In this document: positions 15,621 through 42,887 of the stretch, piece after piece
Numbering within the stretch: position 1 is the stretch's first letter
Layout: the number at the start of each line of letters is the position of its first letter
Source of the DNA: Thelephora terrestris
Taxonomy: Eukaryota > Basidiomycota > Agaricomycetes > Thelephorales > Thelephoraceae
Assembly (NCBI GenBank): GCA_015956445.1
Contig: WIUZ02000006.1
Coordinates: 248,001 to 312,000, forward strand
Reading direction: 5' to 3'
Length of the DNA: 64,000 nucleotides
The notes under the pieces: model-generated
Seen by the model: only the letters and a program-made list of their open reading frames with translations
What the model was told of the DNA's origin: nothing
Databases searched by the model: none
Position numbers and translations under genes: made by a program

Positions 15621-15677
15621 TCCCTCCCCTACTCTCCATTCCAAACCATATTCAATACGTCCAAGCAAACGTCCCTC

Positions 15678-17166
15678 ATGTATCAAGACGACCTCATTAT
15701 GGATAACTTATTAGCCGAACTAGACCGCTTTTCACCTAATATCGACGAAGACGACTTATATGTTCCCGCCTCCCAACCATCCTCCTCTTCCTACTCCCCT
15801 CCATTCCCTATCTCCTCCAACCAGCTTCGGGTATGCTCCCAGAACTGCAGGAAAGACTACAAAACCATCCACTCCTTACTCAACTCATTTGGTCCGGAAA
15901 CAGACATCTTCTTCATACAGGAAGTCTCCTACTACTGCATAGGAATGGATGTCGTTTCGGGCGAGCCGATCCTAGGCTTCCCCTCACACAAAGACTGGAT
16001 CAGTATCTCCCCTGACTTCGCACCTCCACACAGACCCTCAGTAGCGGTCTACGTCCCCAAGTCTCACCCGGGCTGGACCGTCCAGAACAGATCGGACATC
16101 ATCTCCAATCCTAATGTTCAAGCCCTCGAAATCAACTTCAATTCCTCGTCTATCTTATTCATCAATGTTTATAACCCTGAGGATTCTGCCTCTCTGCCCA
16201 TCATTTTCTCCGCCACACTCCCCTTCACTGAGATCATCATCACCGGTGACTTCAACCTCCACCACCCTCTCTGGTCCATAGAAGAACACGATCACAAACT
16301 CACAGACGAGTCCGATTCCCTGGTCCACTGGATGTCCAACCACGGCTTTTCTATCATTAACGACAAAGGTAATACGACCTTCTACAGATACAACAGCAAG
16401 ACACAAAAAGAGTACAAATCCGTACTTGATCTCACCTGGGCATCACCCTCCTCTGTCCCTCGGATCTCCGATTTCCAAGTCAACCACCACAGACACACCG
16501 GATCTGACCATTACCCCATCACGTGGAAGATCGGCTTCTCTCCCCTACCCTTCGACGACACCTCTTTCCTCTTTCATGACGACAACATGTCTGATTGGAC
16601 AAAAGCATTCAACAAGGAAGTGACTCTTCAATGGAGACGCTTCGCCATCCCCGGTGACATACTGGACAAGGACACCTTCACTTCAGCCGTTGACATCTTC
16701 ATGGATAGCATGATCTCCGCCTCGAAAGCAACATGTTTGAGGCACAAGTCATCTCCAAAGGCAGCCAAATGGTTTGACAAGGAAGTTAAATCCGCCCTTC
16801 ACACCGCCCAGAAAGCTCGAGACAAAGCAAGGTCCCAACCCTCTCCTCACAATTTCCTCAGAGCAAATGTCACAGACAAACAACTCAAGTACCAGATCAA
16901 GAAATCCAAGAGATCACACGCGATGAAATACGCCTCCGAAGTCACCACTACCACTAACTTATGGAGACTCAATTCTTGGTACAGAGGCCAACAGAAAACC
17001 CTAACCCCTGCTCTAAAGGACCATGATGGCTCTTGGGCTACGAACTCCAAAGACAAAGCCGAGCTTCTTGCGAACACATGGTTTCCTCTCTCCGGACCCA
17101 CCAGAGACGACACTGACACAGAACCCCCTCCCTCGAATCAATCTCCATCCTGCCCCTTCCTCCCGG
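15678..17166 (+). pseudogene. LINE ORF2, 5' part: AP-type endonuclease
   Basis: The endonuclease/exonuclease/phosphatase domain that nicks target DNA for target-primed reverse transcription. Visible active-site motifs: RVCSQNCRKD (Asn), IFFIQEV (Glu), ITGDFNLHHPLW (Asp, Asn), SVLDLTWAS and HTGSDHYPI (SDH). A linker of about 250 residues leads to the RT domain. The frame is interrupted at 17166 by the LTR element and resumes at 26426 (LPV|TEQEI across the junction when the insert and the duplicated CCGG are disregarded). An alternative start at 15702 is possible. Confidence 0.9.
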
Positions 17167-18195
17167 TGTCGTGACCGTATTTCGGACACTATCCGGAGTC
17201 GCGACCTTCTCTCGACTATCGACAACCGCTGCGCGAGGTCTGGATGACCTCCCTCAGCATTCTCGACTGTCCCGACGAGGATTTGCCTGTCCCTTCACTT
17301 CGCCACACGTCCCTCTCTCCCTATTCTCCCTCGCGACTTCCCGACGTTTTCCCTTTCGACCTGCGACTTAGACCTGCGACCTGCGACCTGCGCCCTTCGA
17401 CCTTAGACCTGCGACCCGCGTTCTCTAGTAGATAGTTTCTCTCAGACTCTTATTCCTTCACACCTCGTCCCGATTACGTCCCGACCAGTCCCGATCGTGT
17501 CCCGACCATTTCCCGATCCTCCATCACGGCTCTTACCTTTAGCTTTCCTTTCCCTATCTCCGTTTCCTGCGTCCCGATCACGTCTCGATCGATCGCTTCG
17601 CTCTCGACTCTAGGCCTCCCTCTGGTTCGTTTTCCAACCACATTCTTTTCCCTCGCTGTTCCCTTCGATCCCTTGCCTTCCCTATGTCATAGACGCGTCA
17701 TTAGGTCTTTTGACATCACTTTGGTTCGTTTCCTTTGGTCCCTTCGTTCTCAGAGCCCCCAGTATTGTATATAAAGGCCCCTGTATTCGATAGACTCCAG
17801 CAATCATTCAGCAGCGTTCCCTCTCTCTCTCTTCCTCTCTCTCTCTCTCTCTTCTGAGGCCTAGCAGCGTTGCTACGGTCCTCCCTTCGGTTCCCTCGTC
17901 GTCTCGCCCTCGTTCTCGTTGTCCCTCTGGTCTCTCGTGTCCCGCTGGTGTCCCGATTTCTGACTCTGTTGTCCCGACGTATCCCGACGTTTCCCTTTGT
18001 CTGTTATTGGTAGTTTCGTTCTCTGGCTTTCCCGTCGTCCTCTGCCTCGTTCTCCCGTTCTCTTCCTGACTTTCTCTCTCACCTTTCATTCGCTTCCCGC
18101 AGATTCCCTAGAGGCTCGCGCCTCTGAACCGAGGACCCGACCTTCTAACTGCCATCTCTGCCCTCTCGGACTCCGAAGGCTTTGTGGCTAGTTCA
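17167..18195 (+). repeat. 5' LTR of the Ty3/gypsy element
   Basis: The repeat begins TGTCGTGACC and ends GGCTAGTTCA, the usual TG...CA ends. A TATA-like gtatataaagg lies near 17767, followed by a CT-rich simple repeat (about 17819-17850). The minus-strand ORFs within it are shadows of this repeat-rich sequence. Confidence 0.95.
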
Positions 18196-18216: not shown

Positions 18217-18550
18217 GGTTTTTCCGCTCCTTTGACTCATTAAGTCTTCCATCATTCCCTCTACTCGCGCAGAGAAGCGTCTCTCTGACCTTCGGGATTA
18301 TCTGTCTGAGACAGTCCCACCCTTCCCACCCACTTTTAGTGATCCTTTCGTTGAAGGTTTCTCTCCCCCTTATCCCTCTGTTCCCGATAATTCTTTGGAC
18401 GTTCCCGACGATTTTGATCTTTTAGATTCCAGTTCCCTTACTTCCCTGATAGATTCATCGCGATCCCCGTTTCATATTCCCTCTTCCACGGTCTCTTTTC
18501 TTTCGTCCATAGCTTCACTTTCTCCCAGCCCTCCACCCACACAGCAGACC

Positions 18551-20716
18551 ATGGCAGCACCTCCCTTCTACATGCCTCTCTCGCACACTCGCGACGCTCC
18601 CAAATTCCGAGAGGATGAGCGAGGCTTCAAGGCCTTCTTCAAGAATGTCTCGGAGCTCGCGAAGCGTGCGGGACTCACAGACGCTGATGCTATTGAGTGG
18701 GCGATCTCCTATGGTGGCGACGAGAGCGAAAACTGGGAGAATGTCGCTTGCATGGCTCCTGGTCGCGTTCCCCCTCCTACCCTCGACGAATTTAGGGAGG
18801 AAGTACGTCTGCGCTACCCCCACCTACTCAGCGATCGTCGCTACAGCATCATGGACCTCCACAGACACATGGAGGCCACCCAGTGCTTCCGCACAATGTC
18901 TCAGGACGAAGTAGGCGCATACTATCGGAAGTTCACCACGATCTCGGACTATCTTATCGCGCAGGATCGTCTCTCCACTCGCGAGCGGAATGCCTTCTAC
19001 TTAAAGGGTTTCCCGCAGTTCATCCGCACCTTGATGAAGCAGAGGCTCGCGATAAAGAAGCCCGACGTTCGTCCCGCTGACGGCTATAGCTTGGAGGACC
19101 TCCACGAGGCCGCTATCTTTGCTGTGGATTCCCGAGATCCCGACAGCGAGATAAAGGTCGAACCGGAGATCAAGGTCGAGAAGAATGGACAGATGGAGGA
19201 ACTGCTGAAGATGATGGGCACCCTTCTCGCTCAGACTCAGCGCAACTCAGCCCCTCCCGTCGCGACGCAGCAGTATCCCAGGACGGATGGTTACCCTACT
19301 CCGGGAGGAGTAGCACAAAACCCCCCCCAGTGGGAGCCCCAGCCTCGTCCTCAGAGCTACTGCATGTTCTGCAACGCTCCCGACCACTTCCTCCGTGTCT
19401 GTCCCATCGTCGGGCAGTACCTCCAGCAGGGAAAGATCATTAGGAACAGCGATAACAAGATCACTCTTCCCGATGGTCGATTCCTCCCTCGAACGGTTCC
19501 TGGCAGTTGCATGCGCGAACGTCTTGACAACTACGCCGACTGGAAACGTCGCAACCCCCAGAGGAACCAGTACGAGCCCGCCGCGACCAACTTCTTCGAG
19601 AGCAACGACGAGTACGCCTTTGAGGTCGAGGTCTCTTCCTTTGAGCCCAATGAGACCGACGACGAGATCCAGGTTATGCACGCAAAGATAAACTCTCTTC
19701 TCGAAGCTCAGAAGGCTCGTCGCGAACAGTTCGATGGCGTTGAGGTCCCTCCTCGCAAGACTGGGTTCCCTTCCCGCCAGAAGGCCCCAGCTCCTCCTCC
19801 CGCTTCCTCTCCTGCTCCCGCTCCCCCTCAGCCGAATATCCACGGCCAGCGAGTTCCCCTAAAGCCATTCCCTCATCGGGATACCCCTCCTCACCTCGCT
19901 GGGAAGCCTGGAGCACCTGTAGATCCTCCCGCTCGTCCCCAAGGTCCTATGAAGCCTCTCGACATGCCCCCCAAGCCTTCTGCCGATGACTCGAAGCATC
20001 GCTACCACTCTGCGATTGAGTCCTCTGTCAATGTCAACGACGTCATTGACAGGGCTCTAGATGCTAAGGTCCAGATCTCAGCTCGCGAGATCCTGGCTGT
20101 CTCGACGGATGCGCGCAAGCATGTCAAGGACTTGGTCTCGACGCGAAAGGTTGCGGCAAACCTTATCGCGAAGGATTCTACGGATTCCTACCTTACCTCC
20201 TTCTTGGAGCCCGATTCTCCCGCAGTTTATCTCGACGTCCACAAATACGACCCGACGACTTCCTCTGCTGCTCCCTCCCTCCCGCTACGAGTCATCTATC
20301 CTACCTTCGCACCAGGAGTCGAACCTGAGTGCATTCTGGACAGCGGAGCGCAAATTGTCGTGATGCGGAAGGATATCTGGGAGAAACTTCGGTCCCCTAT
20401 CACTGCCAACAAGGCGATGGCTATGGAGTCTGCGAACAGTGGTACTACTCTGACCCTCGGGATGGTCGAGCAGCAACCTGTCACTCTAGGACAGATCACT
20501 GTTTTCTTGCAGATCCAGGTCGTTGAGGACGCTCCTTTTGAGGTTCTTCTTGGTAGACCCTTCTTTGACGTCCTATCTTGCATGGATATCAGCCACGCTG
20601 GCGGTATTCACAAGATTCATGTCAGAGATCCCAAGACTGGAACTCCCTACGTCTTCTCGACGAGCCCTCGTCCGCCCAAGCCTTCGCGAGGACCTGCCGT
20701 AAATTTTCGTTTGTAG
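18551..20716 (+). CDS. LTR element gag and aspartic protease
   Basis: Gag starts at an ATG with strong context (accATGG). It has an alpha-helical capsid-like region, then a CCHC zinc knuckle (CMFCNAPDHFLRVC) and a Pro-rich linker. A retroviral-type aspartic protease at the C-terminus has the active site ILDSGAQIVVM and a GRPFFDVL helix-turn. The pol frame overlaps its end by about 140 nt in the -1 frame, an arrangement this family commonly expresses by programmed frameshifting. Confidence 0.9.
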   Translation: MAAPPFYMPLSHTRDAPKFREDERGFKAFFKNVSELAKRAGLTDADAIEWAISYGGDESENWENVACMAPGRVPPPTLDEFREEVRLRYPHLLSDRRYSIMDLHRHMEATQCFRTMSQDEVGAYYRKFTTISDYLIAQDRLSTRERNAFYLKGFPQFIRTLMKQRLAIKKPDVRPADGYSLEDLHEAAIFAVDSRDPDSEIKVEPEIKVEKNGQMEELLKMMGTLLAQTQRNSAPPVATQQYPRTDGYPTPGGVAQNPPQWEPQPRPQSYCMFCNAPDHFLRVCPIVGQYLQQGKIIRNSDNKITLPDGRFLPRTVPGSCMRERLDNYADWKRRNPQRNQYEPAATNFFESNDEYAFEVEVSSFEPNETDDEIQVMHAKINSLLEAQKARREQFDGVEVPPRKTGFPSRQKAPAPPPASSPAPAPPQPNIHGQRVPLKPFPHRDTPPHLAGKPGAPVDPPARPQGPMKPLDMPPKPSADDSKHRYHSAIESSVNVNDVIDRALDAKVQISAREILAVSTDARKHVKDLVSTRKVAANLIAKDSTDSYLTSFLEPDSPAVYLDVHKYDPTTSSAAPSLPLRVIYPTFAPGVEPECILDSGAQIVVMRKDIWEKLRSPITANKAMAMESANSGTTLTLGMVEQQPVTLGQITVFLQIQVVEDAPFEVLLGRPFFDVLSCMDISHAGGIHKIHVRDPKTGTPYVFSTSPRPPKPSRGPAVNFRL

Positions 20717-23700
20717 GCGATTCTATGAGCCCCTCCCAACCACGTTTCAGTCATAGCGAAGCGTCTGGTCCCCTCCTAGAATCGTCGCGATCTTTCGGCT
20801 TCCTGCAGGCTCTCGATAGCAGAACTCCTCCCTCCTCTCAGCGATCATATAATCAGTTTTCATGCATGTCTCCCACGTTGCCTCTCTCCTCATATGCACC
20901 ACCATCGGCATCGTTTTCTGGCTCTTGTCTCCCTTTCTTTCCCGACCCTGTTCCTTCGTTTTCTTCAGATGTCTTGCCTTCGCCTCCCGGTCCTTCTCCT
21001 ACTTCCCGTTCCTTTTCGCGACTTGTTCCCGACCCTTTTGACTGTACTAATATTTCTTTGGACTCTTGTACTTCTTTGGACTTGGCACTTACTTTAGATT
21101 CTGACAATCAATCGTTTTCCTCTTATTCTGCGCATGACTTAAGTTCTCCCTCTTTGTTCTCCACAAGCCAGTTTGTTTCTCCCAACGTCTACTCCACTTC
21201 TTCTTGCTTTTCATTCTACGAACAGCCTTCTTTTGACATCTCCCCTCCCTTTTCTCCCGACGTTATTTCTACTCCCATTGGCTCATTCCCTATTGTACCT
21301 TCACCCTCCCGCACTATTCCCCTCCCTTCTCGACAGGTTCCCGATTTTAGATCTAGATTCCCTTCTCCATCTTCTCTTTGTAGTACTGGCCCTATTGTTT
21401 CCTCCACATCTTCCACTTCAGTAGATTTCTATAGTTCTCTCACCTCCTTCTTCACCTCCTTCCCCTCCATGGATCGTCGTGACGCCTTCCTGTCTTTTGC
21501 CGCCCTCCGTAACGCCATCCCGCCATCCCCTACAAATCCCTACACACCTCTCCAGCTTGCTAGCGTCTGGCTTACTGAGCACTTCACTCAGAGCCCCTTC
21601 CTGGATCTAGGTTCTGATGGCGACTTCGAATCCCTTCTCTACAAGAAGGTGGCAAACAAGACTAGGCCGGTAGCGACGACCCTGCCAGAGAACTTCCGGA
21701 TTGTCCGCCACGAGCATCCCGATCCCCTCGCGAATCTCCTCCCTCTCCCTTCTCATCCTCCCGACTTCATCCCGACGGGGAGATTCACTCGCGAGCGCCG
21801 TGACAAGATGGACATCGGGAAGGATCTTCTCTGGCCTGAAGAGATCAAACTAGCTGAGTGGATTGTTGCCCAGCATCACGCAGCTTTCGCCTGGACTGAC
21901 GAGGAACGAGGTGCCTTTGATCCCCAGTACTTCGCGCCCATCGAGATCCCTCATATCTCGCATGTTCCGTGGGTTCTGAAGCAAGGTCCTATTCCTCGTG
22001 GCATCCTTCAGGAGGTCATCAGGATCATCGAGGACAAGTGGCGGTCGGGTGTCTATGAACCCTCCTCTTCGTCCTACAATTCCCGATGGTTTTGTGTCTT
22101 CAAGAAGGATGGCAAGTCCCTCCGCCTAGTCCACTCTCTGGAGCCGTTGAACGCAGTCACTGTTCGCAATGCCGCGATGCCTCCCTACACCGAGATCGTT
22201 GCAGAGGACTTTGCTGCGCGATCTATCTACACCACTCTCGACCTCTATGTTTCCTTCGATCAACGCCAGCTTCACGAGAGGTCTCGTGACATGACTACCT
22301 TCAACACTCCTCTGGGTTCCTTCAGGCTCACCGTTCTCCCGATGGGCTGGACGAACTCTCCCGCCGTTCTTCAGGGTGACGTCACTCACATCCTAAGACC
22401 CGAGATTCCTCACTGGACTCAACCCTTTGCTGATGACGTCCCTATCAAAGGTCCTAAGTCTCGCTACGAGCTTCCCGACGGTTCTTACGAGACCGTTCCC
22501 GACAATCCCAATATTCGGCGATTTGTCTGGGAGCATCTCGAGGCTGTCCATCGGATCATCCAGCGAGTAGAGTCCTACGGAGCTACGTTCAGCGGGAAGA
22601 AGGCCTTTATTGGTGTCCCTCGTGCTGATATCCTCGGACATGTTTGTACTTACGAAGGCCGAGTTGCAGATCCTTCGCGCGTGCAGGCTATCCAGGACTG
22701 GCCCATCCCGAAGAGTGTTTCTGAGGTTCGCGCGTTTTTGGGCACTTGTGGAGTTCTCAGGATCTTCATCAAGGGCTACACGCTCGTCGCGAGGCCTCTG
22801 ATCCATCTCACTCGGAAGGGTATCACCTTCGAGATCGGCCCCCAGCAGCTAGAGTCTATGGCGAGACTCAAGGCTACCATCCTCTCCTCTCCCGCCTTGC
22901 GCCCCATCGAGTATGAGTCCGACAGACCAGTTATCCTCGCTGTCGACTCCTGCGCGAACGGTGTAGGGTACATTCTCTTCCAGGTCGGAGAGAATGGGAA
23001 GCGCTATCCCAGCAGGTTCGGTTCTATCACCTTCAACGATCGTGAGTCTCGCTACTCCCAGGCTAAGCTCGAGCTCTACGGCCTCTTTCGCGCTCTCAAG
23101 CACACTCAGATCTTCACCATCGGTGTGCAGAAGTTGGTTGTAGAGATGGACGCGAAGTTCGTCAAAGGAATGATCAACTCCCCCACCTTGCATCCTAACG
23201 ACGCCGTGAACCGCTGGATCTCGGCGATCCTCTTGTTTGACTTCGAGCTTGTCCATGTTCCCGCAGAGAGGCACACAGGAGCTGATGGACTGTCCCGACG
23301 TCCTCGCGCTCCTGAGGATCCTCCTCGCGACGATGGCGACGAGCTCGAGGACTGGATTGACTCGAACACTGGTTTCTATATTGACCTTCACACTCCCTCT
23401 TTTCATGACCCTCTTCTTTCCATAGTGCATTCCTATATTTCGGACTCACCCACTATTCCTTCGTCTGTAGTTCCCGCTTTCATGCTTCCCTCTTGCTCTC
23501 CTACTTCGCTTGCTTCTTCTTATTCCACTTCACATGTTCCTTCCCCTTCTATTCGCTCTCCTTCCCCTCTATCCTCTCCCCCTCTCGAGATTCCTCGCTC
23601 GGTGAAGGCCCTTCGTCGCGATGACAGAGTTTCCCTTATTCGCCAGTTTTTGATCGATCTTTCGCGACCTCCCGATCTTTCTGACGAGCAGTACAGACTC

Positions 23701-25001
23701 TTCATCCGACAAGCCACTGATTACTTTCTTTACGAAGGTAGCCTCTTTCGGAAGCGTCAGTCGGGATCCCCTCAGCTTGTCCCGAAGCCTAGTGAACGCC
23801 TCGAGCTTGTTCGCTATGCTCACGATGTTCTAGGACACAAGGGTATCTTCGCGACGACTCAGTCTCTCTCAGTCCGATTCTGGTGGCCCGAGCTTGCCAA
23901 GGATGTCCGCTGGTATACTAGGACTTGCCACGAGTGTCAGGTGCGACAGACCAAGTACTTTCACATCCCGCCTATCGTCCCGCCTGTCCCCTCGCTCTTC
24001 CGCAAGGCTCACATGGATACCTTCCTCATGCCTCGCGTCGGGAACTATCGCTACGTGGTCCACGCCCGCTGCGCGATGAGTTCTTGGCCTGAGGGACGTG
24101 CTACTACTGCGGACTCTGCTAAGGTCATCTCGACGTTCATCTTCCAGGACATCCTCTGCCGTTGGGGTGGTCTCGATGAGATTGTCACCGACAATGCTGC
24201 TCCCTACATTGCCGCTGTTGATATGCTTGGAGAACAGTATGGGATCCGACACATTAGGATCTCAGGCTACAACTCTCAGGCTAATGGGATTGTTGAGTCA
24301 AGCATTTTGACGTTCGCGAGGCTATCATGAAGACTTGTCAGGGCAACGAGGCCAAGTGGCGCGAGGTTCTCCCGCAGGTTTTCTGGGCTGAGCGTGTTAC
24401 TATCCGCAAGGCTACTGGCTACTCCCCCTACTTCCTGGCTCACGGTGTCCACCCCCTCCTACCATTTGACATCACCGAAGCCACCTACCTAGCCCCTACC
24501 CAAGACTTTGGCATCACTACTGAGGAGTTAGTCGCACTTCGTGCCCAGCAGCTCGCGAAACGTCCCGAAGATCTCGAAGACATGCGTCAGAGGGTTGCGA
24601 AGTCTCGTCGGAAGAATCTGGAGCAGTTCGAACTGCGCCATGGTTCCCGCATCGTTGATTTTGACTTCGAGTCCGGAGCTTTGGTTCTGGTGCGCAACAC
24701 TCGCGTTGAGGAGTCCTTGAATAGGAAAACCAAGCCTCGCTACCTCGGTCCAATGGTCGTTGTGCGCAAGACAAAGGGGACATCATATATCGTGGCCGAA
24801 CTCGATGGAGCACAGTCTCAGCTTCGCGTTGCAGGCTTCCGACTCATCCCCTACTTCCCGCGCACGGCTACCGATATCCCGCTGATCTCTGATCTGGACG
24901 ATGACGAGGACTTCACTTGGGACGATCCCGAGGATGTCCGCTACCTTTCTTCCCTTCCCGACGACCATTCCTATGTTTCCCTATCCCCTCCTTCCCTTTG
25001 A
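20578..25001 (+). pseudogene. LTR element pol: RT, RNase H, integrase
   Basis: A long Ser/Pro-rich N-region precedes the reverse transcriptase (palm motif FADDV). RNase H follows (VDSCANGVGYILF), then integrase with its HHCC zinc domain (HDVLGHKG and CHECQVRQTK), a catalytic core (IVTDNAAPY) and a GPY/F-like C-terminal module ([11 protein letters not shown]). No chromodomain was recognised. As a fossil it looks nearly whole, with about one break. Confidence 0.9.
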
Positions 25002-25392: not shown

Positions 25393-26421
25393 TGTCGTGA
25401 CCGTATTTCGGACACTATCCGGAGTCGCGACCTTCTCTCGACTATCGACAACCGCTGCGCGAGGTCTGGATGACCTCCCTCAGCATTCTCGACTGTCCCG
25501 ACGAGGATTTGCCTGTCCCTTCACTTCGCCACACGTCCCTCTCTCCCTATTCTCCCTCGCGACTTCCCGACGTTTTCCCTTTCGACCTGCGACTTAGACC
25601 TGCGACCTGCGACCTGCGCCCTTCGACCTTAGACCTGCGACCCGCGTTCTCTAGTAGATAGTTTCTCTCAGACTCTTATTCCTTCACACCTCGTCCCGAT
25701 TACGTCCCGACCAGTCCCGATCGTGTCCCGACCATTTCCCGATCCTCCATCACGGCTCTTACCTTTAGCTTTCCTTTCCCTATCTCCGTTTCCTGCGTCC
25801 CGATCACGTCTCGATCGATCGCTTCGCTCTCGACTCTAGGCCTCCCTCTGGTTCGTTTTCCAACCACATTCTTTTCCCTCGCTGTTCCCTTCGATCCCTT
25901 GCCTTCCCTATGTCATAGACGCGTCATTAGGTCTTTTGACATCACTTTGGTTCGTTTCCTTTGGTCCCTTCGTTCTCAGAGCCCCCAGTATTGTATATAA
26001 AGGCCCCTGTATTCGATAGACTCCAGCAATCATTCAGCAGCGTTCCCTCTCTCTCTCTTCCTCTCTCTCTCTCTCTCTTCTGAGGCCTAGCAGCGTTGCT
26101 ACGGTCCTCCCTTCGGTTCCCTCGTCGTCTCGCCCTCGTTCTCGTTGTCCCTCTGGTCTCTCGTGTCCCGCTGGTGTCCCGATTTCTGACTCTGTTGTCC
26201 CGACGTATCCCGACGTTTCCCTTTGTCTGTTATTGGTAGTTTCGTTCTCTGGCTTTCCCGTCGTCCTCTGCCTCGTTCTCCCGTTCTCTTCCTGACTTTC
26301 TCTCTCACCTTTCATTCGCTTCCCGCAGATTCCCTAGAGGCTCGCGCCTCTGAACCGAGGACCCGACCTTCTAACTGCCATCTCTGCCCTCTCGGACTCC
26401 GAAGGCTTTGTGGCTAGTTCA
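25393..26421 (+). repeat. 3' LTR of the Ty3/gypsy element
   Basis: Same length as the 5' LTR (1,029 bp) and, as far as I could compare line by line, identical to it. It is followed by CCGG, then the LINE resumes. Confidence 0.95.
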
Positions 26422-26425
26422 CCGG

Positions 26426-29284
26426 TGACAGAGCAAGAGATCAGTCTCGCTTTCAAAAACCTCTCCAACACGTCCGCACCTGGGATCTCCGGTCTAGGTT
26501 ACAAAGCACTCAAATGGGCCCACTCGAGTCAACCTGACAAACTAAACAGCATCATCAAAGCATCTGTCCAATTAGGGATCCACCACCCCAGATGGAAATG
26601 TTCCCTGGTAGTAGCTATCCCCAAGCCCAAGAGAGACCCATCAGCCCCACGCTCACACCGCCCAATCCAGCTTATCGAATGCCTCGGAAAATTGGTTGAG
26701 AAGATTGTCACAAAAAGACTTCTGTTCGACTCAGGGAAATTCGACCTCATGCCATTCAACCAATTTGGTGGAAGATCAAACGCATCTTGCCTGGATGCAG
26801 GCCTCTCCCTCATTCATGACATCCACACCGGAAGACAACAAGGTCTTGTCTCTTCTTTCCTAGCGATTGACATCAAGGGCTTCTTCGACCACGTCGACCA
26901 CAAGAAGTTGATATCCACCCTCTGGAATAAAGGTTTCCCAAGGGAAATCTGTAAATGGGCTGCCTCATTTCTGACAGACCGCCAAGTACAAATCCGTCTG
27001 GACGAATACCTTTCACCATCATTCCATCTCAAGGTCGGCGTCCCACAGGGCTCACCAGCCTCTCCTGTCCTATCGTGCATCTACGCCTCTGTAGTCCTGG
27101 AAACCATCAACGCCAATCCCATCCTCTCCTCCTCTGGCCTTCCCGTTGCCCCCCGGTCATACATCGACGATGTGGGCTTCCTCGCTATATCCGACTCATT
27201 AGACGAAAACATCATCACCCTCAAAGCCACGTTGGAAAAGGCCGAGTCCCTCTTCCACTCACTGGGCATGCACATTGATCCCGACAAATCAGACCTCATG
27301 CACTTCTCGTGGCGTCAGAAGCACAACTCTTCGCCCTCTTTGTCAACGGTCCTTGAAGGGAAACCTATCACCATCACACCACCCAAATACATCCGATGGC
27401 TCGGCTTCTACCTGGATAGGAAACTTTCCTTCAAAGATCACACCGATATACTCTGCAAAAAAGGGAAGAACATCATCTCCGGCCTTTCCTGTCTAGGCAA
27501 CACCGTCACAGGAATCAACCAGGAACACCTACGTCTCCTCTTCAAAACATGTGTCATCCCAGTCATCACCTACAGTTCCCAACTATGGTACAACCCCCAT
27601 CATCCCAAGAAGACTCTCATCAAGAAGCTCCAGACAGTCCAGAACCTGGGCTTACGAAGGGTCACCGGAGCATTTCGCACCTCACAGACAGAAGCTCTCC
27701 ACTTCGCCTCCTTTATCCCCCCATCGAAGTCACTATCAATAAGTTATTTGAATCCTCGGCAGCAAGACTATTCCGGCTACCGCTTTCATCCGAAGTCTCA
27801 CTCAGACTCCCACCATCATTCATCCCACCCTCCTCCCCACTTCACATCCGAGTCCCGGGAGCCCACCTAGGCCCCAAAACTCACATTCCTTTCATCAGAC
27901 CCCCTTTCCTTCGTGTCAAACCCACGAAGAACCCCCAAAAACATTCCCAGATCACACTCCTCGCCTCCACCCTCCAGCCCGACGCGGAGCGCCAATATCC
28001 CTACCACGACCACTGCGACCCTGCTTCCTTCTGCACCACCTCCCCCATGTTCAGCAATCGGCTCAATATCGACCCAGAAGTATGCGCCAAAGCGGATAGG
28101 AAATCCCTGGTCCACAATCAAAACATCACCTTCACACGCCGAAGACGAGACCCCTCCTGCCTTACCATATTCACCGACGGATCTAGACTCCCCAACAAGA
28201 GGAACACCGGTTACCATACTGGATACGCCGTCACAGGTTATCACCATGCCGTGGGAAAAGGGACGCTCAAGAAATGCTTCTCTGTTTCAAGACCTTATTC
28301 TGACAGGGCGTCGAACTTTGACGCCGAAATGTTCGCCATTTCATGCGGAGCCAGAGGGGCCCTTCAATACATGAAGAACCACCCCGAAATCAACAACATC
28401 AAGATGTACTCGGACAACTCCAGCGCTATTTCTGTCATCTTCGACCCTGCCCCACATCCTTCACAACAGTCCTCTATTGACTTTCGAAACGCCATCTTCG
28501 AGATGTTCACAATCAACCCCGAAATCACCTTTTCACTAGTCTGGACCCCAGGCCACGGAGGATCCAAAGGAATGGACATTGTGGACCGCCTCGCCAAGGC
28601 AGGTGCTAAGTCCAAACTCAAACCTATCCAATCCTTTGCCAGTCTTTCTCACGTCCTATCGGAGATCAGAGAGAAGAACCCCATCAAGAACTGGAAAGAT
28701 CACATCGAGGACCATCCTATAAAAGACGACTCCCTCTTTTTCAAAAACTCCCAAGTTCTACATCCCTCTCTCAAACCACCCAAGTGGTTCAAGAAAGTCA
28801 ACCGTCCCACCACCTCCCGCCTCACCCAGTTCATCACCGGACATGGCTACACAACAGAATATTTCGACCGGTTCAAGATTCCCAATCGAGGAACATGTGA
28901 TTGCAGCAAGACCAACGTTACCTCCTATCCACCAGTCCCCCTTTCGAGAGAACACGCAATCAAGGCATGTCCCCTTTTTGAAGATGCTCGGGGAGTCCTT
29001 CAACGACATGCGCCGCGAGTCACTCATCACAAGTGGCCAACGTCCAATCTCCTCAAAAAGGATTTTCTCGAACACCTCGTCACATTCCTCAATGAATCCG
29101 GCGCTCTTTCCCGGAAGTATTCGACGGCGACAGGAGAGCCCAGACCTAGTCCCAAAAATCGAACCAGTGACTCCCAAAATCCATTGGACCCCAACCACCC
29201 AACCAGAGGATCTAGCCCCACCATTATGGCAACAAACACGACAGAGAATCGACGAATGGAACGACAGATTCAACATCACTCCGG
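26426..29284 (+). pseudogene. LINE ORF2, 3' part: RT, RNase H, C-terminal zinc motif
   Basis: The RT domain begins TEQEISLAFKNL. It has the fingers/palm motifs VVAIPKPKRD, RPIQLIECLGKLVEKI, FLAIDIKGFFDHV, VGVPQGSPASPVLS and the catalytic RSYIDDVGFL. A frame change occurs at a C6 run (27717-27722), where SFIP would lead into PIEVTINKLFE. RNase H follows: LTIFTDGSR, FDAEMFA, MYSDNSSA and WTPGHGG...VDRLAK, giving the expected acidic residues and His. The C-terminal region has CDC...H...C spacing (CDCSKTN, REHAIKACPLF), typical of Tad1/I-type LINEs. The frame is interrupted at 29284 by a solo LTR. Beyond it the same frame would stop at 30602-30604. Confidence 0.88.
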
Positions 29285-30335
29285 TGACATGCCTCCATTC
29301 TCTGGAGTACTCGTCGGCGACATTCCCTACGTCCCTTTCCCTCGGGATGCTTCGCGACGTTTCGCGACGTTTCGCGACGTTTCTATACTCTCTATACCTT
29401 CCTACCCCCCCCCTATGCATCCCTATACTTCCCTACATACCCATATCTCCCTTTACCTCACTACTCCCTTCCCTATACTAACCTACTCGTCCCAATGCTT
29501 CGCGACCTTCCCGATGTTTTAGTATTCTCCCTATCTCTCGCTACCCCCCCCCCCCCGACCTCCCTATATCCCTCCCAACACTACACCATTCGCGACCCCT
29601 CCTATATCTTCTCCCGACTTCCCTATACCTTCGCGATATCTCCCTACACCATTCCCCTCGATCTCTCAATCCCTATGCTCGATCATTCCCTTTTGGTTCA
29701 TTTCTCAACCACATCTCTTTCCTTGGTCGTTCCCTTCAATCCCTCGCCCTCCCTATGTCATAGACTCGTCATTAGGTCTTTTGACATCATTTGGTTCATT
29801 CCCTCTTGCTTCCTACGTTCTCAGAGCCTCCTAGATTAGTATATAAGCCTCTGTATTCGATAGACTCACCAGAGACCAATCCAGGGGACTGATTCCCATG
29901 TTTTCCTCTCCCTATCGTTCTCCTCTCGTCGTCGTCGTCTCCCTATAGTCTCCTGCGTCTTCCCTATCGTTCTCATCGTCATACCTGCGTCCCTGCGTTC
30001 TTGTCGTCGTCTCTAGCTTCCTGTCGTCATCCCGAAGATCCCGACCTCCCGAAGTTCTCGTCGTCGTCCCGAAGTTTTCCCTTGTCGTTCCTTTGTCTGT
30101 TTCATTGATTCCCTTCTGTTGTCTTTAGTTATCTTTAGTTCCCTCTCGATATCTACTTCTCCTTACACATCCCGACGTTCCCGACCTTCCCGACGTTTCA
30201 CTACATTTCCCTACAGTTCCCTACGTGTCCCTACGGAGCTAGGAGGCATCGTACGACCAAGGACCACCTTCATCGACGTTGACAGGGCACCCCATCTTCT
30301 CCCCATCGGACCATAGCCCACATAGCTCCTGTTCA
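29285..30335 (+). repeat. Solo LTR, related gypsy subfamily
   Basis: A 1,051-bp segment starting TGACATGCC and ending CTCCTGTTCA, flanked by CCGG on both sides (29281-29284 and 30336-30339). Its promoter part closely matches the intact element's LTR: ccctatgtcatagac, cgtcattaggtcttttgac, a TATA-like agtatataagc near 29841 and ctgtattcgatagactc. Elsewhere it differs clearly, so it belongs to a separate or older subfamily. No internal region remains. Confidence 0.88.
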
Positions 30336-34524: not shown

Positions 34525-37500
34525 TCACCGTCGACACAGAGTCCAATGAGTCCGCTTTCCAGTCGCAAGGTACACTATACCATCCGCGTTGGTGGAAGGC
34601 TTCATCCAGGACCCTGGTTGGTTAGGAAGCAAGTTTGTGACCTGATTGGGGTTGGTGAGCCTTTCTCTCAACAATTGTTGGTCGATGCGACGCACCAAGA
34701 ACGTTTGCCCAGCTTTGAAACCACCCCTTTCTCCCCCTTCCTCGTGTATGAGACTCATCACGTTCCATACAGTTATCTGTGTTGTCGAGTTCGCAGGCTT
34801 ATGGTGGGTTCGCGCATCCCTCGCGACCACGACTCTAAAGTCTTTTACGTCTCGCGGTGGATAGAGGGCCTAGGATGATTTGAAAGATTTATCAGTCCAG
34901 TACTGGGGTAAGGCGAAGTCGAAGGAAACGCACATTAAGTTCAGATTCAATTTCGTCCCCCGCTCTCTCCTTCTCCTTGACAATGTTTTCCCTTATGGTC
35001 CTCGAGAGCCACCCAGCGTCTTTCGCCGTCACACGAGAAAGCACGTCGAAAGCTTTGGTTTGTGAGTGTATCGACTGCGAATGAGAAAATCCCTCAAGTT
35101 GCTCGTAAAAGTCTTCGACGACCTCAGGACAAGTATCTGCCCAATTGTCGTGTCAAAATGATCAGCAAGCACCGAGAAGCGATGCACGGGGGTCACACCA
35201 TCTTCTCTGGGGATAAACCTATCGCCAAACTTCGTGTCCATCCTATCCGCGTAACCATCGAGCGTCGAAATCCGGGCTTCCAGCTCGTTCCTGAGTCTCA
35301 CTGCTTCTTTATCTCTCTTTGCCTGCGCAAAGCAAGCCCATCGCTCAATCAGCGCAGGCCTTCAACAATCAAACCTGAGCCACCCACCTGCCAAACATCC
35401 CTCGCAGCCATCTCTTCCTTCTCACCCATTGGCCCAATCCTCCTCCGCCTGCCATCGTCATCCTGGATGAATTCCAGATATGCTATGGGATATACCTGAA
35501 TGGGTATTTTCAGATGTTTGCTACCGCAATGAAAAGGGGGGCATACCTTCTCAATGCGGAGGTTCATCATAGCAATGTTCCCCCCATCCGAAGTTAAACT
35601 GCCTAAAGTGCACACGGTAGCACAACTTGTGAAGCCGAGTTTGGCGTGCCACGGCACTAGATGGGTCGAGTTCCCAGAAAGTCCGAGCTTGACGCTATCG
35701 TAAGCCTCAAGGACCTCTGAGGGTTCCTTGCGCTCCGACACTAGCTACACGCCGTCAATTGGTCATAGACTGTGTACAGGAAAGTTGCGCACCTTGGCAT
35801 TGACGACGCCGATCTTCCTTCCGACCCTGATTATCCTCCTACGGATGGCACGAGCGAGAGGTGCGTCAACCTCAGCTCGTAGCCTGTACCACCCATCGGT
35901 TATCTCCAGCTCTGGAACACGGTCTACTGTCCCATCAGGATTCCGCTGATTTTCCATCCAAATCACTTTGGAGATGCATAGGACCATCGGAAAAGTCGGG
36001 GGCGAGTCACCCGCTGTGATGAGCTTGAACGGCGGTCTAGACCCTCCTTGAAGTTCCTTCTCGTACCTGTATTGCACTATCATCGGGACTGTAAAGACCA
36101 CAACTTTGGGTTGAAGCGTACCTATATCGTAATTGGTTCATTGTCTCTTCCCAGCTCCATCTCTTGGCTTCAGTGGGTTCAAGACACAACATCCCAGCTT
36201 GTTTCCAGAGTATTAGACCCCAATGATTATGAACCCAGTCCTCGGTTGCCAAGGTGCACCCTGCGTTCCGAAGTTCTGTAAAAGCGGCCGCTGGACCGAG
36301 AGGACCAGAAGGGGAGTAGAAGGAGTAGTGTATTGCTGTCTCGGGCGTGATTTGGCTCATCTCTTCGACATTTCTATGAAGCACGGCCACTGAGTGGTGA
36401 ATATGGAGGGCGCAAACGACCATGTGATGCTTACATCCCCATAGATTCGAGCTCGTCCCTAGAATATGACTGGGGCACTTTGCCGCAAGCAGCGAGTGAA
36501 TTCCGGTTTGGTGGCGATGCTGGGGTAGAGTCTCATCACCAAAGCCTGTGATCATAACCGCCAGAGAGACCTACTGAGGTCAAAAAATTGATATTCCTTT
36601 GCCTTTTCTTTGCCTTTCCGACTGCCTGATGGCGATTTCAAGGAGGGAGGAGCCTCATAAATTGGCTTCCGGGGTGGTGAATGGATTTGAATCTGAGACA
36701 CTTGATCTGTTTGTCGTTCTTGTAATCGTTTCCTCTCCTGACCCTCTTGAAATTTTGCCCTTCCAGGTTCTCCCGGCCGCATTCCAAGTTTGAAGGGAGT
36801 GGTAAACTTCTTGACGGATCCTGGTCGCTGAACCCCACCAGGCCTCACTGGCGAGCGAAAAGCAGAGTCAGTAGTTACCCTGGAGGGTGTCATAGGTTTG
36901 GGAATGGTTGAAGCAGAAGTGGATGACAGTAGTGGTGGCTTGAATAGAGGCACTGAGCCCTTGGATTGAGCAGGGGAGAAGGGAGAAGTAGGCACTGAGC
37001 TGGTTAGATTCGTCTTGTTCGACAGCAATGGTGGCTTGAACGGCTTTTGTTTAGCGGGTCGAGTGGAATTCGTGTTTTGTGGTGAAATAAGTCGAGAAGG
37101 TGTGAGGGTTGGCGACAATGGATTCTTATCCAGGCTCAAAGATGGTCTTGGGGGCGTAACTGGTCGTTGAGGCAAGGCAACTTCTAATTGAGAGGTTGCG
37201 GGTGATATAAAAGATAGCTCTTCTTCGATGTCAGCTTCCCAATCTCTCATACGTTTCTTCAACTTCTGGATGGCAGCGTCGGAGGGTTGAATGGTAATGC
37301 CCTTCCCCACAGAGGTAAAACCAACGAATCCGGTTCCGCTTGTAGCAGAGACGGGCTGAAACCCAACGAGGGCAGGGATATCGGTTGAGGTCGTGTTAAA
37401 CCATGCGTCGTGGTCTTGTTCTGGGGGTGACTCTTCTGGACTTGAAGGACGGTAGTCACTGTTGGTAATGTTGCCAGCAATAGCGCGGGCTGGGGCAAAG

Positions 37501-37901
37501 CCGGAGGTGATCGCCACCGACGGACCTGAATGTATCCCACCATTCGAGGCCATTCGAGCGGACGTAGGCAATGCTCGGGTCGTGACTGGACCATCATTTA
37601 CTTCCGAGGCCAACTCCGACGCTCGTCGCTTATCCCCTGTTGGCTGTGATAACCTTGAGCCCTCAGCGTGAATTTCTGAAGAGGTAGGTGGCTGAATGGG
37701 GGCTACGGAGTAGTCGCTTTGCGAAACAGCAGCATCGATCTCGGATAAACTCTGCAGGTCCTCCGGAGACAAATCCTCGATGAATCCGGGGTAGATTGGA
37801 GACGACATCCTCCGCTTCTTGTGCAGATGGGATGAGCCTACTAAAATCGGTAAATATGGGGTTGTCCGAAGGCCAGAGAGGGAGAAACGACCTTGGCTCA
37901 T
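34525..37901 (-). CDS. BRH2: BRCA2 family recombination mediator (Brh2-like)
   Basis: Loads Rad51 on single-stranded DNA in homologous recombination. Ten exons (36575-37901, 36435-36519, 36122-36373, 35793-36066, 35547-35744, 35388-35495, 35199-35322, 34934-35136, 34696-34869, 34525-34641) sum to 953 residues. One BRC-like element is visible in exon 1 (GFVGFTSVGKGITI). Two FKPPLLS motifs (KPFKPPLLS, LFKPPLLS) follow. The helical domain has SQITPETAIHYSF, LGPAAAF and WVHNHWGLILWKQAG. OB1 has FPMVLCISKVIW, ITDGWYRL and DAPLARAI. OB2 has SGNSTHLVPWHAKLGF and IAYLEFIQDDDG. A short coiled insert (RLRNELEARISTLDG) and a C-terminal OB part (TTQITVWNVMSL) follow. The start may instead be 37808 (MSSPIYPGF), giving 922 residues. 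Divergent from the taxilin gene. Confidence 0.92.
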
Positions 37902-38211
37902 TATCCGCGCGTTGAGGTCGATGGACGCGTCTTTGAAAGTGGTGACAGCACGTGCCTTGCGGCATCCACTTGAAACTCAAGCCACAGAAAGTTGGTTGAC
38001 AGCATTTCGTTCACCTCATCTCTCCTGTCAACCCAACAGCAGACAAGCCCCTCACTATTTTAGTGAAACTTTCTGCAGGTTTGTCCCGATTTTTTTGCAT
38101 TCTCCTGGCTAATTTTCACTCCTCACAGCCCACTTCTTTGGTCTTTGCCCCGTCATTCGTCTGAGGAATAGATAACTCTTCGCATTTAGTTGCACACTGA
38201 ATGCTCAGGTG
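37902..38211. promoter_or_regulatory. Divergent promoter, Brh2-like / taxilin
   Basis: These 310 bp separate the two starts. A short T-run (ttttttt near 38090) and several ttggtc/caacc stretches are the only features seen. No proven element. Confidence 0.45.
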
Positions 38212-40309
38212 ATGAGTGGCGTCTCCCAAGCCCAGACACAACGGCCGAAAGTACCTGCCGGTCCTGCGCCAGTTAATGCTCCACCCGCACCTCCAACACA
38301 GAAACCGACCCCAAGTTATCAACACCCGAGCCACCCCCGTCCAAACCCACAACCAAACACACAGCCCCTCGCCAACCGCAGTCAACCCACAACCAATGGT
38401 CAGTATTCAAAGAACAAAAAGAAAACCGACCCTGCACCAGTTGATCCCGCTGTCATGTACGAGAGCTTGAAGAACAGGATCGCGGCGTTAGAGGAGGAAG
38501 AGACGCACGAGGAAGAAGAAGAAAGAAAGTTTGGTGCGTGCTTTACGACCTCTACGCTATCAATTGCAGAAGGGTTGATCAAGCGCACGCGTTACGTTTT
38601 CGCAGCTGAGGAGGCCCAGAAGTCTGTAAAGGGTGTTCCGGACAACCTTGTTCATGCAAAGTATGTTGAACTGGTATGACCACCTTCCTCGAGTCTGTAG
38701 CGGGGTTCGAATTCAACACTGATTTGTTGCCCCTCAGTTCGCCGAGTTCAAACGGCTTGAGAGGGACCACGCCAAGGAGAAACAGAAGCTAACCAAGGAC
38801 AAGGATGCAGGTTAACGATTAATGTCGGCGCATATATTCCAATCCCTGATCCCGTCCTCAACGTTTGTAGCCAAGGGCCAGCTTACGAAAGTGAATCAAA
38901 CCAAAGTCAAGATGGAGAACCTGGCTCGCGAGTTGCAGAAGGTCACTTCATCTAGTATCTACATCCTCTGTTATTCCTGACAGATTTCCCCAGGACAACA
39001 AACGACTAAGGGTAAGCCCGATTCCTGTTTGGTTCTGAAAGAAGAAGTAAACTCTGCACAAAGGAAGATGGCAAACGACTGACTCAATGCGTCGAAGATG
39101 CACAAGGGGAGATCGCTCAAATGAAGAACGATATGGCCAGGCGAATGGAACGGGCAAAGCTGCAAGATATCAAGTACCGCGATTCCCCCGACATTGTAGT
39201 GAAAGTCGTATGCAAATACAGGGCAGAGTTGTATTTCAAGGTCTCGCGGAAGATCAAGTTTTCTCGACTGTTCCATGCTTGGAGTGACCGGATGGACAGT
39301 GTACTGGCCACGGGCGGCGGACTGGGAGCGGCTAATGCAACTACCGTGGGGACAGCTGGGAAAGGGGGGAGGCAGTTGTTGTCGGCTGAAAAGCCCAACG
39401 GTGCCGCCAAGTTGGATCCAGCAAAAGGAGAGTCTAATGCCATACGATTCATCTTCTCACACGGCGGGCGGACAATAGAGCAAGATCAGACGCCAGAAGA
39501 GATGGGGATGGAAACAGGTGATGAGATCCTTGCGGTAGAGTTGATGGACTTGACGGAAGGACCAGGGACAGAAGTCGTCGTAGGTGACATTCCATTCGCA
39601 CCTATCTCACTGAGGTGGTTTGACAACTGATCCCCACCGCGGGTTAGGACGAAGGTTCGCCTGAACCGAGGCGGCAGAGACTGATTAAGAACTGGACGGA
39701 GGATCCCAAAGAGTAAGTCTGCGCAATCTGTAGAGCGTTCCATATATCTGACCCGCACACTGCCTCAGGGCCAAGAGGGCGATGGAGGAGCTCTTCGACA
39801 ACGTAGTGCGTGAACGGCTCAAGGATATCCTGCGTCAGTACGAACTTCGCGAACGACACTTTGAATGTGTAATACGTTCGAAGGAACTTGAGGTCCTTCT
39901 CTCGAGAGCGAGAGCGGCGGAACAACAACAGTTGGCTGAGGGGCAGGCAAACAGAGCATTGAAGGCGGAACAGGAGGTATAGATGTCTCTCGCAATTCCT
40001 TGTCCAGGACTGACCGTGCTGACTTGACCGTAGAACGAGCAACTGCGGAAAGACCTCGAGCAGTCTCAGAATGGCCAAACAATGCTCATTGATAAGTTAA
40101 TTGCGTGCTGTAAAGAGGTACGTATGACCCCGGTAAATCACGCGTACTCGCTCCTCGTCCCTCCAAACATCTTCTGACTTTCACTTACCTTGTCGCGCTC
40201 TCCCGCCGCGAATCTCCAGCCGAATGCGGAACGGACACAACGGCTGTTCGCATCGTTACGAGAGGAGCTGGAGAAGAGGGGAACAAAGTTTACAACTAGC
40301 GGGGATTGA
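38212..40309 (+). CDS. Taxilin-family coiled-coil protein with internal SUMO-like domain
   Basis: Taxilins bind syntaxins and microtubule or ribosome partners. Nine exons (38212-38673, 38738-38810, 38871-38941, 38994-39011, 39064-39579, 39648-39712, 39769-39976, 40034-40117, 40220-40309) sum to 528 residues. The N-terminus is Pro/Gln-rich. The taxilin part runs KGQLTKVNQTKVKMENLARE, EDGKRLTQCVEDAQGEIAQM, and later RQYELRERHFECVIRSKELE and QTMLIDKLIACCKEPNAERT. Between these halves, inside one exon, lies a Rad60-SLD/SUMO-like fold: IVVKVVCKYRAELYFKVSRK, LFHAWSDRM, a Gly/Ala linker, then IRFIFSHGGRTIEQDQTPEE and GDEILAVELMD. It lacks a C-terminal GG, so it is not a conjugated modifier. Splices on both sides keep the frame. 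Exon 4 is only 18 nt. Confidence 0.88.
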
Positions 40310-40496: not shown

Positions 40497-42032
40497 TTAA
40501 ACCAATGTATCCAAATCCTTCAAGCTGTTCAAGATGCCTGACTTCTTGATAACCTTACCCCTCACGCCTTCCAATCCATCGCCGGCGTAGCTGACAAGCG
40601 GAGACACCTCAACCTCGACCCCCTCTTCAAGCTTCGCACCGGCAGCCTCGAGCCACCTCTTATGCTGGGATAGGAGGTCCATCCTACTCGTCTCTGGATC
40701 GTCCGAACCAGTTCCAGGGGCGTTCTTTAGTGGACTGAACTCTTCCGACCGCGAAACTTCTAACACGGCGAACCGTTTTGTAAACGGGAAGACGTCGAAT
40801 ACGAACAACTCGAGCTTCATCCCATTCGGCTTGGTGGGCTTCACGATCTCTCCGGTAGACGTATCGATGTGTGGAATCTTCTTGCGAGCGATATGGTATG
40901 CGAGATTATCTTCGAAATCTTCGACTTCGTTGAGGAATTGGAGGGTATAAAAGTGGTTCGCGATGTTTCCGGCCCTGAAAGCGAGTTCACCGGTCTTGAG
41001 GTCGATTTGCTCCGCTTGGGCCTGGGTGATCTCGGAATACTCGACCACGCTGTACTTTTGTTGACGGAGAGCAACGACGCCAACGGATTCCGTTGGGCTG
41101 GATTTTGGTACGACCTTGGCTGCGCAGTCGGATTGTTTATGAACGCAGTAACCGATGAAGATGGGATCTGCGACCTTTACAAGACAGTTGTCGACGCAGT
41201 AACTGTGGATATATCGGATCTTTCGCGAAGCGAGATCAGAGAGGACGGTCCGAGTAGCATCTTGTGGTTTGGAAGAAACTGGTTGACGCAGAGCGGCGTA
41301 GAGACCACCGTTACCGTCTGGGGCAACCGCAACATGGGATTTGGCGTCGAGGATAACTTTTCCGTCCATCGTCAGGCATGGAAGCGTCCCTGTGGTTATG
41401 ACATTAGCGCGTGAAGATCAAGCAGCAGCCCATCGCATACCTTGCTCAAACAAGATAACATTCGATGAGTCGAGCCCGAAATATGAATTCTCGGCGAAAA
41501 ACGTCTCCGTGGCTGGGCGAGTGGGACCACTGGTCATCACATACCAAGGGATGATGACGGATCCCTTCGCCTTTCCAAACTCGGTTTCTGCCACAGTTTG
41601 CAGCCTGGCGATCCTCTCTGCTTGGTACTGGAATAGAGATTTATGTGAAGGTAGCCCGATGTCGTAGCACCCCTTGGGAGCGCTGCTTCCCAGTCTAGTC
41701 CCTTGCCCACCAGCCATCAATAAAACGCCAACCTCTCCTTCCGCGATTGCGCGCAGGCCGAGTTGTCTCCATTCCGACTCTGCAGCGGGATCGTTTGTGG
41801 AGGACGAAGCGTCCTCAGGCAAGGGCTCGATGATCTCCGACGAGGCACCCTCGGTGGTAGCTTTTTCGACCTCGAGGGCTTTGGCATGGATGCGGTTCAC
41901 GCGTTTGATATCGATGGAATCGAGTTGGGTGAGAAGAGCTGATTGTTCCGATGATGATAACGAAGACCAAAATTGGAATAGGTGACCTTGACCAGCATCT
42001 TCGTACAACTTGCGCGTTGATTCGTAAGTCAT
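40497..42032 (-). CDS. UAP1: UDP-N-acetylglucosamine pyrophosphorylase
   Basis: Makes UDP-GlcNAc from GlcNAc-1-phosphate and UTP, the precursor for chitin, GPI anchors and N-glycans. Two exons, 41441-42032 and 40497-41389, are joined over a 51-bp intron (EQG|TLPC), giving 494 residues. The signature nucleotide-binding loop is LLMAGGQGTRLGSSAPKGCY. Other family motifs are PWYVMTSGPT, VAVAPDGNGGLYAAL, RYIHSYCVDNCLVKVADP and GNIANHFYTL. The start at MTYEST (42032) is chosen because the longer frame upstream begins only with GTG. It converges with the taxilin gene, with 187 bp between stops. Confidence 0.95.
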
Positions 42033-42887
42033 TGTGGGCGAGGTATCGTGCGGGTTCAGAGAGGTCAATGGGCAGGTGGTGGTCACTTAGGTCAACTCCC
42101 GGGCGTGATCATCTCTTATATGCTCTGCCAATAATAGAAGGTTGAAATGAACCGAGAAAACAAACGCCGATTGCCCTCGTTCTCTGTGGTACGCGCGATA
42201 GCATCGTTCCGATGGACTTTTCAAAAAGCGGTAAGGTAGAAGTATCTATCGACTTTGAATCCTACAAGTTACACAAGTAAAATATCCCAGCTGGAGAGCG
42301 ATATCGTTGGCTGCGCAAGATATGAAAATCAACATGATCGCCACGGTTGGTTTAAATAAATGAACGGTCACTGCAGTTCTTTTCCAACGTTTTTCGAGTT
42401 CGGAACACTTCCGTCTTGCAACATAGAGCGTTGGGCTGTGTACGCTCAACTACCTCAAGGGGAGGACCGTCCGAGTACCTGCGCAGGGCCAAGAAACAGG
42501 GCGTTATATGTTCATTATACGTATGTGGTACCGAAGAAAAGAGATCCTGAGAAGAGAGCTACAGCGGGGTATATCAGTTATGGGTATATTGGACGGAAGC
42601 AGGAGGCAGCAAAGAGTGCACAATATCCCGTGGGGCAGGTGTAGACGGAAGTGTCAAGCCGTGATTAGAAAGGGCGAATCAAACAGATTGGGGGTATATC
42701 AGGATAGATAGCCAAGGAAATCCATGGAACCAAAAGACCAGGCGGCGAGTAACTCGAGGACAGATCAAACGTGTTGGTTCCTCAGGTAGTCCATCGAGAT
42801 CAAAATTGAAGTTGGCAAAGGCAAGGGTCAAGTGGCCATTGCGTCGAGCTGGAAGTAGGGCAAACCCGTTGATGTAGTCTCACGAGC
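42033..42887. other. Intergenic, no gene seen
   Basis: UAP1's promoter lies at the left. The plus-strand ORFs around 42360-42711 overlap in several frames and show no family motif. Confidence 0.45.

Follow-up and report, generated by a model that had tools for sequence, protein, structure and literature searches.

A taxilin gene of Thelephora terrestris is predicted to encode a coiled coil interrupted by a SUMO-like domain. The window analysed, a 64,000-nt stretch of contig WIUZ02000006.1, carries this gene on the plus strand, from an ATG at 38212 to a TGA ending at 40309. At the sequence level the arrangement was confirmed as real, with the corrections given below. We put slightly below even odds (about 0.45) on its best explanation, namely that in this taxilin orthologue the helical rod is broken by a single complete SUMO-like domain that cannot be conjugated; as a permanent mimic of SUMO, this domain would dock partners with SUMO-interacting motifs (SIMs).

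The spliced model contains nine GT-AG introns and ten exons, giving 504 residues and one terminal stop (Table 1). The original prediction had announced a protein of 528 residues, a figure to be replaced at the same locus, and nine exons all keeping frame: the frame is indeed kept to the single terminal stop, but the exons number ten. The introns measure 52–102 nt (n = 9) and seven of the nine carry a CTRAY box, the exceptions being introns 1 and 5. Exon 6 was found, as claimed, to be open throughout and to pass without a break from taxilin coil (EDGKRLTQCVEDAQGEIAQM...) to the SUMO-like domain. The protein then returns to taxilin in frame, again as claimed, but not via the next splice: two splices are needed, with the small exon 7 between them. 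The introns concerned, 6 and 7, look normal, with GT-AG ends, a CTGAY box and 17 nt after the A of the box.

Table 1. Coordinates, in the window, of the taxilin gene and of the domains in its product
Feature	Position	Strand	Description and basis
Exon 1	38212..38533	+	ATG, proline-rich N-terminus, coil begins; spliced model and composition
Exon 2	38606..38673	+	Spliced model
Exon 3	38738..38810	+	Spliced model
Exon 4	38871..38941	+	Spliced model
Exon 5	38994..39011	+	18 nt, DNKRLR; spliced model
Exon 6	39064..39579	+	516 nt, phase 0-0, open throughout; taxilin coil into SUMO-like domain
Intron 6	39580..39647	+	68 nt, GTAGGT...TTAG; CTGAT, 17 nt after its A
Exon 7	39648..39712	+	65 nt; linker DEGSPEPRRQRLIKNWTEDPK; spliced model
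Intron 7	39713..39768	+	56 nt, GTAAGT...TCAG; CTGAC, 17 nt after its A
Exon 8	39769..39976	+	Spliced model
Exon 9	40034..40117	+	Spliced model
Exon 10	40220..40309	+	Ends TGA; last third of Taxilin profile unmatched here
Taxilin N-terminal piece	38617..39120	+	Residues 112-203, Pfam profile 7-106; spans exons 2-6
SUMO-like domain, first half	39184..39294	+	Residues 225-261; phmmer, Pfam, hhalign
Gly/Ala-rich loop within SUMO-like domain	39295..39438	+	About 48 residues (262-309), low complexity; composition, hhalign
SUMO-like domain, second half	39439..39537	+	Residues 310-342; Pfam, phmmer, hhalign
Taxilin C-terminal piece	39708..40078	+	Residues 377-462, profile 123-212, RQYELRERHF included; spans exons 7-9

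On the spliced protein, the Pfam Taxilin profile (PF09728) matched in two stretches with an E-value of 1.9e-17 and 63.8 bits, against a cut-off of 30.3. Each half alone exceeded this cut-off (41.2 and 33.9 bits), and the C-terminal arm scanned by itself again matched Taxilin over residues 377-462 (E 2.5e-8). Between the two pieces, about 173 residues stand in place of 16 profile positions and the uninterrupted coiled-coil middle is absent. Since the pieces are collinear and almost adjacent in the profile, they bear the signature of an insertion within taxilin, as first proposed, and not of a fusion at one end or of two neighbouring genes. The match stops at position 212 of 302, leaving positions 213-302 unmatched. 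In a crude and weak heptad test, only the N-terminal arm passed the 99% null, the C-terminal arm failing to do so. Searched in six frames with the Taxilin model, the genome of the fungus (60 contigs, 40.6 Mb) gave a single match at E ≤ 0.001, which was exon 8; this search missed the gene's own N-terminal piece, made of short exons, so another taxilin in small exons could be missed too. With the coil preceding the insert as protein query of the same genome, the taxilin locus was the sole match.

For the insert, the Rad60-SLD profile (PF11976, cut-off 23.8) scored 29.2 bits in the whole protein (E 8.3e-7) and 32.7 bits in the excised segment (E 6.7e-8), and the two halves scanned apart matched profile positions 1-34 (E 0.028) and 38-68 (E 7.4e-5). 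In a six-frame scan of the genome exon 6 reached 21.2 bits, below the cut-off, because the second half alone matched. Both Pfam models exceed their cut-offs in one spliced protein, as the original prediction would have it, and chance would be a poor explanation for the two matches together. The NCBIfam search returned no match. Against the PDB, phmmer aligned residues 227-262 and 309-341 in order to SUMO-type chains (best E 5.6e-4), two of the 55 sequences listed having E < 0.001. The insert was aligned by hhalign with three SUMO sequences over 70 columns (probability 97.8%, identity 34%); the alignment has a single long gap, which indicates a complete domain that a loop of some 48 residues divides. 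A profile including the insert found 165 PDB sequences at E ≤ 0.01, with SUMO or SMT3 in the label of 55 of the 60 shown; this adds little, because two of the three profile rows were other SUMO-like domains.

An AlphaFold2 model of exon 6 alone, made without relatives, was of low confidence (mean pLDDT 42.6, pTM 0.30); it has a helix at 2-30 and then five strands in an order compatible with a beta-grasp, the long helix being absent. The 27 PDB entries that Foldseek matched to this model at E ≤ 10 include no SUMO and no match with E ≤ 0.001, a result that carries little meaning because the model is poor. The beta-grasp fold predicted for the insert draws on the sequence profiles, where the evidence is strong.

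We then compared the insert with two SUMO-type domains of the same genome, from a separate SUMO gene (C34:621868-622169) and from an ORF ending in a RENi-like domain (C15:312734), both named by eye from their translations. The insert scored 22.5 bits against SUMO, the best of 200 shuffles reaching 5.2, and -0.9 bits, within its shuffles, against the RENi-like domain. It is thus, as far as such scores tell, nearer to SUMO, and the Rad60-SLD label of the original prediction misleads, although the model match itself is above cut-off. Used as a protein query of the genome, the insert found itself plus two matches at E 0.5 and 0.7, which were taken as chance. The RENi-like domain (L019 1300-1593; G000 C15 around 312734) has about 20 extra residues of its own at about the place of the 48-residue loop. 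Ubiquitin-type matches, polyubiquitin-looking (L009/L010, G000 C8 and C22; L013/L014), scored the same on each of two contigs, so the assembly may contain a duplicated block or two haplotypes.

The computation establishes that the frame holds after splicing, that taxilin is present in two collinear pieces, that the SUMO-like domain is complete and has a long loop, and that the genome gives a single match. On the likeliest reading, the insert would serve in the taxilin rod either as a fixed SUMO mimic or as a folded spacer. As in other taxilins, the helical arms would make up a rod, with the domain sitting halfway along it. The insert has no C-terminal di-glycine: the domain is followed by ELMDLTEGPGTEVV, the linker and taxilin. 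Its residues E-L-Y-F-K-V...L-F-H-A-W...R align over E-V-F-F-K-I...L-x-x-A-Y...R of SUMO, positions which we take to be the SIM-binding strand and helix of SUMO (strand 2 and helix 1). Most of the groove positions for SUMO-interacting motifs look fairly well kept, to judge by one sequence. The insert would then give the taxilin rod a fixed SUMO surface. As the least certain steps of the proposed mechanism, the domain would behave as a permanent SUMO mimic and would dock SIM-carrying partners onto taxilin's traffic or nascent-chain work. The genome holds 25 E2-model and six SNARE-model matches beside the SUMO gene identified by eye, which makes SUMO and SNARE partners plausible. Because the groove strand and helix look kept and the turn taken to contact Ubc9 is altered, we infer from this one sequence a ranking with SIM docking first, an inert spacer second and Ubc9 recruitment third.

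The second reading, possible if somewhat doubtful, is that the domain derives from a SUMO gene, has lost SUMO-type binding under relaxed constraint and now serves the rod as no more than a folded spacer or a hinge. This reading is favoured by the divergence of the insert, which shares 33-35% identity with the genome's own SUMO and 38-42% with two PDB SUMO-type chains, versus 49-55% among those three, as well as by the 48-residue low-complexity loop and by the turn between strands 3 and 4, where a two-residue insertion puts S-H-G-G in place of the D-G of SUMO. Strands 1 and 5 of a beta-grasp are parallel and the ends of the domain leave on opposite sides, so a SUMO-like domain can sit in line with the rod, and this also counts for a spacer. 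Against it, the SIM groove looks fairly well kept at its strand 2 and helix 1 positions in the single sequence at hand.

A role like that of the second SUMO-like domain (SLD2) of Rad60, Esc2 and NIP45, by which the insert would recruit the SUMO E2 enzyme Ubc9 to partners of taxilin, seems improbable. The contact is described as acidic in Schizosaccharomyces pombe Rad60 (E380) and Saccharomyces cerevisiae Esc2 (D430) (PMC7891725). We place the equivalent of these two residues, by assumption, at the strand 3-4 turn. In the column so equated with Rad60 E380, the genome's own SUMO and RENi-like domain both have D and the insert has S-H; the acidic Ubc9 contact appears lost on this assumed mapping, which makes recruitment in the Rad60/Esc2 manner less likely. 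The lack of detectable closeness to the RENi-like domain also speaks against it. In its favour, SLD2 of these proteins binds Ubc9 (PMC2946365, PMC7891725).

The weakest alternative, a gene-model artefact in which two transcripts are joined or the insert is lost from the main mRNA through a long intron or skipping of exon 6, is very improbable: 57 in-frame GT-AG pairs in the scanned range would excise most of the domain, but the five with a good donor would make introns of 333-494 nt, whereas the gene's nine introns measure 52-102 nt; exon 6, a 0-0 cassette, can be skipped alone without loss of frame, so that an isoform without it is possible, but skipping would also delete taxilin coil; and although exon 6 read unspliced continues to a stop ending at 39630, and its codon bias supports the forward frame weakly (out of 2000 shuffles, 6, 52, 13 and 82 reached the scores of its four parts, and one reverse frame does equally well), introns 6 and 7 look normal, and homology marks the SUMO-like domain as coding, in the coil's own exon and frame. 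The original view that no artefact is involved holds in that we found no obvious one, the pieces being collinear and the two introns GT-AG with a CTGAY box.

Queries with exon 6, the whole protein and the C-terminal arm found no relative of the same architecture in the viral and prokaryotic collections. In viral contigs, these three queries, a three-sequence SUMO alignment and a QYELRE DNA pattern found no taxilin. In the genome contigs one locus came up, L025, bacterial by its MAG title; its 43% identity falls within query residues 1-50, which are coil, and was taken as coil similarity. The IMG/VR 'viral' contig L033 carries at 917-1174 a SUMO exon that is eukaryotic-looking and may end at an intron, and this contig may be of host origin. 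In the literature, a search directed at papers other than subscription ones gave nothing for a taxilin with an inserted ubiquitin-like domain in its coiled coil, for a SUMO-like domain with a coiled coil in basidiomycetes or for the taxilin Pfam family in a fungus. Within this search, none of the titles and abstract openings among the matches listed shows the domain order Taxilin, SUMO-like, Taxilin. The one listed paper with both names, PMC11515202, treats taxilin and Rad60-SLD as separate proteins. Both domains are already known; the order, not met in the literature matches listed, may already stand in public protein databases.

Upstream, in head-to-head orientation with the taxilin gene, lies a BRCA2-like gene on the minus strand (35349-37976), with BRCA-2_helical (5.5e-7) and BRCA-2_OB1 (3.1e-23) matches in successive ORFs; an adjoining 474-aa ORF (36552-37976, minus strand), which has no Pfam match, may be its N-terminus. 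Downstream, tail-to-tail with taxilin, is a UDPGP-family gene (8.9e-25) consisting of two long minus-strand ORFs (40497-42086), presumably a UDP-N-acetylglucosamine pyrophosphorylase. Neither of these two neighbours has a SUMO-like match from which the insert might have come. Farther away, the plus strand of the window carries retroelement pieces between 15621 and 29522: one of endonuclease-reverse transcriptase type (15621-17174), one with aspartyl protease, reverse transcriptase (RT), RNase H and integrase (18236-24330) and one with RT and RNase H (26338-29522).

A wider possibility, which we regard as unlikely on present grounds, is that the architecture is clade-wide, a taxilin with a captured non-conjugatable SUMO at mid-rod that would link SIM partners without any SUMO enzyme. 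To our knowledge, SUMO-like domains built into larger proteins come mainly from the chromatin-associated RENi family. If the wider possibility is true, fixed SUMO fusions would come in two kinds, that family and the clade-wide protein, the latter at work in vesicle traffic or nascent-chain handling and away from chromatin. A SUMO-like domain inside taxilin would extend the fixed-fusion idea to the cytoplasm, and a rod-like coiled coil would be seen to tolerate a globular domain inserted at one defined point. A domain removable on its own would also give a simple handle on fungal taxilin function.

Taxilin is normally one long coiled rod, acting in traffic and in protein making. The protein described here resembles the Taxilin family (alpha-, beta- and gamma-taxilin) in its two collinear matches, its RQYELRERHF core and its one genome match; unlike the family, it is interrupted by the segment with the SUMO-like domain and leaves the last third of the Pfam profile unmatched. 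For mammalian taxilins, three papers report binding to syntaxins, sorting nexin 4 and NAC, and joining of alpha- and gamma-taxilin via their coiled coils (PMC3972091, PMC4650556, PMC8816381), and an Arabidopsis alpha-taxilin-like protein is found in a ribosome cross-linking set (PMC12330729).

Compared with SUMO/Smt3, the insert is a full domain by hhalign, with detectable similarity to the genome's own SUMO and the strand 2 and helix 1 pattern; unlike SUMO it is internal, without a free C-terminus or terminal di-glycine, and has the long loop and the changed strand 3-4 turn. With the RENi family (Rad60, Esc2, NIP45) it shares the principle of a non-conjugatable SUMO-like domain built into a larger protein. 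RENi proteins, as presented in PMC549199, typically have two C-terminal SUMO-like domains, with a helical stretch between them in the fungal members, and have been proposed as SUMO mimics in the form of non-conjugatable fusions. The taxilin studied here differs in having one such domain and not two, placed internally and not at the C-terminus, and in that its helices are those of taxilin; its insert shows no detectable closeness to the genome's own RENi-like domain, and appears to lack the acidic Ubc9 contact.
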